A DNA stretch of 64,000 nt, taken from the NCBI RefSeq assembly GCF_008016455.1, contig NZ_SAXU01000001.1, positions 1,922,001 through 1,986,000 on the forward strand. The letters are read 5' to 3'. The notes below the pieces were generated by a model. That model saw nothing but the letters and a program-made list of their open reading frames with translations, did no database searches and was not told the origin of the DNA. The number at the start of each line of letters is the position of its first letter. The first letter of the stretch is position 1. The position numbers and the translations under genes are program-made. This DNA comes from Brachyspira aalborgi. Lineage in GTDB: Bacteria; Spirochaetota; Brachyspiria; Brachyspirales; Brachyspiraceae. This document shows, piece by piece, positions 57,528-57,771 of the stretch.

Positions 57528-57711
57528 TATAGAACTCTCCTTTTGATATTTATTAAAAACATTTAAATAAATGTTTCTTGCGAAATTAAAATTTTGATTG
57601 AATTGAGATAATCCAAATATTAGTTTTTTATTTGATAAAAATTTTTGCAATAAAATTGAAGAGCTTAAAAATTTAAACGCTTTTGAAATTTGTAATATAT
57701 AGAAATTTAAA

Positions 57712-57771
57712 TTATTGTTTAGAAGATAATAATAGCGTTCTGTTCTGTTCTAGATTATTCAAGTTAAACAT
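57712..57771 (-). CDS. Repeat-containing leader ORF, cassette F (19 aa)
   Basis: ATG 57771 follows AAGG, and the GGAAAG upstream lies in the loop of a CCGAA/TTCGG hairpin. The peptide is MFNLNNLEQNRTLLLSSKQ, ending at TAA 57712. With four AGAAC units it would enter an open frame of 69 codons (from TAT 57734) that runs in frame into the lipoprotein ATG 57527. The peptide of that open frame resembles the one in cassettes A and C (LNNNxxFYIxQ, KAFKFLSxSILL), although the leader itself differs. Confidence 0.62.
   Translation of the reverse strand: MFNLNNLEQNRTLLLSSKQ
57737..57751 (-). repeat. Short pentanucleotide repeat (AGAAC)3
   Basis: Three units (GTTCT on the plus strand) inside the leader ORF of cassette F. 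Confidence 0.95.

Follow-up and report, generated by a model that had tools for sequence, protein, structure and literature searches.

The window analysed here, a stretch of 64,000 nucleotides (GC 28%) of the 2.5 Mb genome of Brachyspira aalborgi (contig NZ_SAXU01000001.1, positions 1,922,001 to 1,986,000), carries copies of a cassette in which a short leader open reading frame (ORF) with a non-triplet repeat is followed by a stretch, the hidden frame, that lacks stop codons in one frame as far as the next gene. The hidden frame is probably the distal half of a leader cistron that is switched by the repeat and delivers ribosomes to the next start codon. Cassette F, which had been singled out in a first-pass annotation of the window, consists of the following parts:

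57769-57771, minus strand: leader start codon, with an AAGG ribosome-binding site upstream; the leader ORF spans 57712-57771 and its present product is MFNLNNLEQNRTLLLSSKQ
57737-57751, minus strand: AGAAC repeat, 3 copies, read from the sequence
57528-57734, minus strand: hidden frame, stop-free from the repeat to the lipoprotein start, containing the block compared with cassette A
57126-57527, minus strand: lipoprotein gene, broken by a TAA at 57425-57427 (an intact homolog lies in paralog L065)
57834-57905, plus strand: 72-nt copy of 59590-59661 (88% alike in sequence), at the position of the -35 box of the paralogs

A leader like that of F was found in the intact paralogs L063, L064 and L065, and the AGAAC unit was present in 3, 6 or 12 copies in paralogs and in 9 or 11 copies in Brachyspira catarrhinii. 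The hidden frame of F enters the lipoprotein start (57527) in frame and closes at the premature TAA. The TTGACA (-35) box before TATAAT, present in the paralogs, was lost in F with the -10 TATAAT retained at 57820-57825, and no strong minus-strand promoter for F was found in the promoter scan. The 72-nt segment, duplicated from the gene at 59598-60374 (3' end) into the space between the -10 and -35 regions, apparently destroyed the promoter. Due to the loss of the -35 box and the nonsense codon in the lipoprotein gene, cassette F is probably dead.

The first-pass annotation had stated that no ribosome starting at the leader would read the hidden frame of F in its present repeat state, and this was confirmed: translation from the leader ATG (57771) gives the product listed above and then a stop, and no ATG, GTG or TTG opening the hidden frame was found upstream in the cassette F sequence. 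It had also described a block of about 29 codons shared with cassette A with about 15 codon differences, six of them synonymous, and with the KAFKFL and SILL residues kept. Codon alignment from 57734 downwards on the minus strand reproduced each of these features, with 15 differences in the first 29 codons and 17 over the full 31 codons (57642-57734), of which 6 were synonymous (CTA/TTA, AAC/AAT, TTC/TTT, AAA/AAG, GCG/GCA, AGC/AGT) and 11 nonsynonymous. Base changes at the first, second and third codon positions of the hidden frame numbered 6, 2 and 12 and none involved a stop, compared to 2 synonymous changes in each of the other two frames with 2 or 4 changes involving stops. The pair taken alone is only suggestive of selection because random re-placement of the base changes reached at least 6 synonymous changes in 6.2% of trials (P = 0.06).

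From this block the annotation had concluded that the coding content is under selection and hence translated in some cells, and had proposed a comparison of this frame with the other two across many copies. We compared approximately 35 cassettes from this genome and B. catarrhinii Z12, with one genome per species. In the conserved blocks (19 sequences, 41 codons, two species), a calibrated codon model that relates the cassettes by a tree without recombination gave a dN/dS of 0.47 in the hidden frame (2dlnL 11.8) compared to 2.31 and 1.21 in the other frames, and 0.46 in the hidden frame from this genome alone. When neutral evolution was simulated along this tree with no stops allowed, dN/dS had a median of 1.02 and a minimum of 0.61 (n = 100), so that none of the 100 was as low as 0.47. 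Equal rates at the three codon positions, which the annotation had named as evidence against its claim, were not obtained; parsimony over all aligned cassettes, including poorly aligned parts, placed 189, 197 and 265 changes at positions 1, 2 and 3 (p = 3e-4). A pooled permutation of synonymous and nonsynonymous changes against the consensus, a weak test that ignores the tree, gave P values of 0.37 and 0.04 for two blocks. An initial codon model (dN/dS 0.36) was discarded after neutral simulations revealed a biased estimator and an unstable optimiser, and tests of indel length modulo three were dropped as gaps were scattered in the alignments of these AT-rich paralogs.

Purifying selection was thus found at the level of the family, but neither in the non-significant F/A pair nor between the closest copies, where synonymous to nonsynonymous changes were 0:7 (L002-L017), 1:4 (F-L065) and 1:11 (L020-L022, a heptamer pair) with no stops arising. 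Openness has therefore been kept far more strictly than the amino-acid sequence, on which the constraint is moderate and seen only across longer times. There is good support for translation of the hidden frame in the past of this cassette family. Given that F looks dead, its own synonymous differences would reflect past selection on ancestors and expressed paralogs and not current translation of F. The purpose of the hidden frame is probably not the peptide itself, because cassettes differ in the register between this frame and the downstream gene.

The cassettes share a general order of promoter-like sites (often in tandem), a short leader ORF with a Shine-Dalgarno sequence (SD) and ATG, a repeat usually beginning about 10 codons into the leader, the hidden frame and the next gene. 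Seven repeat units of 5 or 7 nt were found (AAGCA, AGAAC, GAACA, ACAGT, GCAAC, CACTA, ACCGTCA), and the hidden stretch covers approximately 45-150 codons, or more where elements have been inserted. The next gene usually encodes a lipoprotein or outer-membrane protein with its own SD, start and signal peptide; L025 leads into a Brachyspira variable surface protein (Vsp; PF05540) and another cassette into a DctP-type binding protein. Further next genes, as read from their sequences, appear to encode an ABC transporter ATPase (L011), a dehydrogenase-like protein (L081) and GTPase-like proteins. The cassette was clearly present in 2 of 26 Brachyspira genomes (this genome and B. catarrhinii), with no more than marginal matches in other species among these 26, and nothing was found in the viral contigs and phages searched.

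All 23 of the intervals tested were stop-free in one frame from the repeat to the next start, compared to 0.78 expected from dinucleotide-Markov sequences of equal length in which any frame was counted that stayed free of stops up to 15 nt or less from the main start; the paralogs share descent, and the 23 are thus not independent. The chance of openness per cassette ranged from 0.0002 to 0.13, being 0.01-0.13 for ordinary intervals and below 0.004 for four long B. catarrhinii intervals. The remaining two frames soon met a stop, in most cases no more than 20 nt past the repeat. Openness was shared by all seven repeat-unit types and was also found in hidden sequences that are largely unrelated (ACAGT, CACTA, heptamer and L011 types), and in B. 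catarrhinii L071, L072, L075 and L078 the hidden frame stays open through repetitive-element inserts of approximately 100-400 nt. The other cassettes of the window, named by letter or position, are as follows:

23638-23640, minus strand: leader start codon of cassette A
23564-23602, minus strand: AAGCA repeat of cassette A, 7.8 copies
23372-23563, minus strand: hidden frame of cassette A, 63 codons, its stop ending 1 nt before the ATG of an outer-membrane-protein gene (22600-23370)
23403-23436, minus strand: covarying hairpin inside the hidden frame of cassette A, from the covariation analysis
40575-40798, plus strand: four tandem promoter-like sites before the 40.9 kb cassette, from the promoter scan
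40845-40921, plus strand: leader start and AAGCA repeat (40883-40921) of the 40.9 kb cassette
40922-41080, plus strand: hidden frame of the 40.9 kb cassette, its TGA overlapping the lipoprotein ATG (ATGA); hairpin 41013-41046, lipoprotein 41077-41388
49080-49323, minus strand: 49.3 kb cassette, with leader (ATG 49321-49323), single-copy repeat AAGCAAAGC (49278-49286) and hidden frame; this is in frame with the outer-membrane protein 48411-49079 and carries a hairpin at 49114-49150
52486-52652, plus strand: leader, CACTA repeat (52499-52538) and hidden frame of the 52.5 kb cassette, ending ATGA at a 25-aa ORF (52649-52726)
63424-63649, plus strand: leader, ACAGT repeat (63455-63496) and hidden frame of the 63.5 kb cassette, in frame with the outer-membrane protein from 63650; hairpin 63579-63615

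Roughly half of the cassettes had a hidden frame that ran on into the main gene without a shift of register (F, 49.3 kb, 63.5 kb, L002, L003, L004, L007, L009, L010, L012, L017, L024, L029, L065, L071, L078, L126). The hidden frame ended in an ATGA overlap in the 40.9 kb and 52.5 kb cassettes, L015, L018, L028, L075 and L081, a stop that any open frame in this register must meet, as ATGA is how these genes begin. In another group (A, L005, L016, L063, L064, L011, L020) the stop mostly lay within approximately 15 nt of the ATG, and in one lipoprotein group (L005, L063, L064) it was inside the SD (TAAGGAG). An upstream stop within about 10 nt of the downstream start is the criterion for coupling used in PMC3711429. 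Stops overlapping or adjoining the downstream start were found in the out-of-frame cassettes with the exception of L072, L019 and L025, where they were farther away (+23, about -28 and +119, respectively). Homologous outer-membrane-protein genes occurred in all three registers, in frame (49.3 and 63.5 kb), with ATGA (L015) and with the stop 1 nt before the start (A). As the register is not conserved, delivery of ribosomes to the start is favoured, and a fixed fusion protein fits poorly.

Most hidden frames contained a hairpin 27-47 nt upstream of the main ATG (232 nt in L078) with the consensus ATARCTTAT-stem-loop-stem-TTTAGTTAT. Compensatory changes were found in five of the six inner pairs (for example CAAGGA/TCCTTG, CAGAGA/TCTCTG, CGAAAA/TTTTCG and TAAGGA/TCCTTA), 94% of the cells pair, and the covariation score was reached by none of 500 shuffles. 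The hairpin region had no match in Rfam. A terminator-like score was obtained once only, at 41022-41037 in the 40.9 kb cassette, and none was obtained for F; Rho is encoded in the genome.

Repeat number differed between close paralogs, with 5, 7, 8, 11, 14 and 19 copies of AAGCA in differing phases. The phase in which the leader would read the hidden frame was found in L011, L081 and L025, so that natural ON arrangements exist. Both OFF phases were represented among AAGCA leaders, all four F-type leaders of this genome were OFF with copy numbers that are multiples of three (3, 6, 3, 12), and almost no start codon opened the hidden frame in OFF cassettes.

We propose that transcription from the promoter, often a tandem array, would give an mRNA containing the leader ORF, the non-triplet repeat, the stop-free stretch and then the SD and start of the main gene. 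Slippage to the right repeat number modulo three would let leader ribosomes pass through the hidden stretch, open the hairpin that most cassettes carry and arrive at the next start, where they would run on in frame or terminate and re-initiate, turning the gene ON. In either of the remaining phases, the leader would end a few codons past the repeat, the following RNA would be untranslated and the gene would be low or OFF, whether because coupling is lost, because transcription terminates too soon or for both reasons. The anatomy, the openness, the variable register, the differing copy numbers of paralogs, the hairpin covariation and the purifying selection were read from the sequences; slippage within populations and the direction of the switch are inferred, and either coupling or premature termination could link leader translation to the gene. 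A broader reading, in which the cassettes are genome-wide phase-variable attenuators in which slippage decides whether the leader ribosome disarms the covarying hairpin and reaches a surface-protein start, in dozens of unrelated genes that are mostly OFF, is possible and is offered tentatively.

Several observations weigh against the proposed switch. Each main gene is preceded by a good SD, and a strong dependence on upstream translation is thus not obvious. The ON phase was found in only 3 of approximately 34 leaders compared to the expected one third (P about 0.001 if independent), an excess of OFF that may reflect the cost of expression or culture conditions. The hairpin is absent from F-type, heptamer and L011 cassettes. 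In L023 an insertion closes the hidden frame 460 nt short, which makes this broken cassette an exception, and F is probably broken as well. Slippage within a species was not seen with the single genome covered for each.

Ordinary phase variation within the gene, in which the leader ATG would be the true start and the hidden segment an N-terminal extension of the surface protein, made with it as a single fusion whenever the repeat is in phase, would account for the half of the cassettes that are in frame, and two loci indicate that the genome also uses a conventional design: L067 (G000:C1 ~1282900) has its AAGCA repeat within the signal region of the lipoprotein itself, and in L008 (G000:C1 ~1524370) the leader is joined to an outer-membrane-protein gene body that has no signal peptide. 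We consider this unlikely for the cassettes in general, as many of them, including homologs of the same main gene, are out of frame, with the stop falling on the start codon or within the SD, and a strong SD and complete signal peptide at the internal ATG are found in both register classes. It is still less probable that selection acts on the hidden peptide for its own sake, as a small basic hydrophobic protein produced only in some cells, with its closeness to the next gene incidental. The low dN/dS in the hidden frame and the conservation of the motifs KAFKFL and LVKSFLTSINFDSLS across two species would be expected of such a peptide, but close copies differ almost only nonsynonymously, the short type lacks whole segments, the ACAGT, CACTA, heptamer and L011 sequences are largely unrelated yet equally open, and no convincing family was found in Pfam.

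A switch of inverse direction, in which reading of the hidden frame would lower expression by interfering with the downstream start and ON would be the common phase, would agree with the position of most leaders in the other phases and with the good SDs of the main genes. Interference needs no stop-free path ending at a start or in an SD, however, and stops that form ATGA or overlap the SD are a known hallmark of coupling and re-initiation (for the criteria, see PMC3711429). We consider this direction marginally less credible than a selected peptide. A lack of function, with the open stretches arising by chance in AT-rich DNA and being copied along with the cassette, would be favoured by the shared descent of paralogs, by which their openness is not fully independent. 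This we regard as highly improbable given the low chance of openness in each interval, above all in the four long B. catarrhinii intervals, the equal openness of unrelated sequences and the dN/dS and codon-position tests that favour the hidden frame.

Translational phase variation by coding repeats is known from Neisseria opa (CTCTT pentanucleotides) and from Haemophilus mod and lic (tetranucleotides). Phase variation of Haemophilus mod is also covered in PMC3711429. The cassettes resemble opa, mod and lic in that a non-triplet repeat just past a start codon sets the frame, the genes mostly encode surface proteins and two of the three phases end early. They differ in placing the repeat in a leader ORF apart from the gene, which retains an SD, a start and a signal peptide of its own, and in having no fixed register between leader and gene. 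In Moraxella catarrhalis uspA1 and uspA2, which have been studied experimentally, repeats lie between the promoter and the start codon (PMC4679880), as do the cassette repeats before their surface-protein genes, but the latter sit inside an ORF with an SD and ATG and would act through the frame. The cassette repeat is thus a non-triplet repeat near a start, presumably translated, and neither an untranslated repeat of the uspA type nor, with the exception of L067, a repeat in the ORF of the regulated protein, as the main gene has a separate SD and ATG. Coupled overlapping cistrons share with the cassettes an upstream stop that overlaps or adjoins the downstream start (ATGA), whereas coupling here would depend on the number of repeat units, which differs from one copy to the next. 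As in leader-peptide attenuation of the trp, tna and erm type, ribosome movement on a leader ORF would control a hairpin ahead of the main gene. The switch would be set by the reading frame in the DNA and not by an amino acid or drug, the U-tract is weak, and no alternative antiterminator is apparent.

Vsp (PF05540) genes occur genus-wide, and one heptamer cassette (L025) leads into such a gene; no comparable upstream repeat was found at the other sampled Vsp loci (30 loci scanned). In L134, an ATGCG repeat seems to be located on the far side of a Vsp gene. The heptanucleotide leaders (ACCGTCA, 4-9 copies; L020 ~2337250, L022 ~758360, L023 ~1242200 and L025 ~1301970 on G000:C1) form a second family with a hidden ORF of approximately 145 codons, before Vsp (PF05540) and DctP genes. 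L011 (G000:C1 1999390-2002540) has two tandem leaders with an N run between them before the ABC transporter ATPase, and the second leader is the ON one. Leaders are also preceded by arrays of approximately 54-62 nt repeats, each unit with a TTGACA/TATAAT-like promoter and varying in copy number among cassettes (40575-40798, 63172-63407, 23762-23870, 49434-49576), and a GCCGA-GAAA-TCGGC hairpin lies immediately before the leader SD at 40817-40830 and at other AAGCA-type leaders.

No published description of repeat-based phase variation in intestinal spirochaetes was found in the open-access literature. A frame that is unread in an assembled genome can bear the signature of selection, having been read in other cells or formerly. 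If the proposed switch is correct, it would allow any gene to be made phase-variable in a modular fashion, with no repeats in the protein, as the leader cistron could be put in front of genes for lipoproteins, outer-membrane proteins, Vsp proteins or transporters whatever the register, and it would provide a concrete mechanism for variable surface expression in intestinal spirochaetes.
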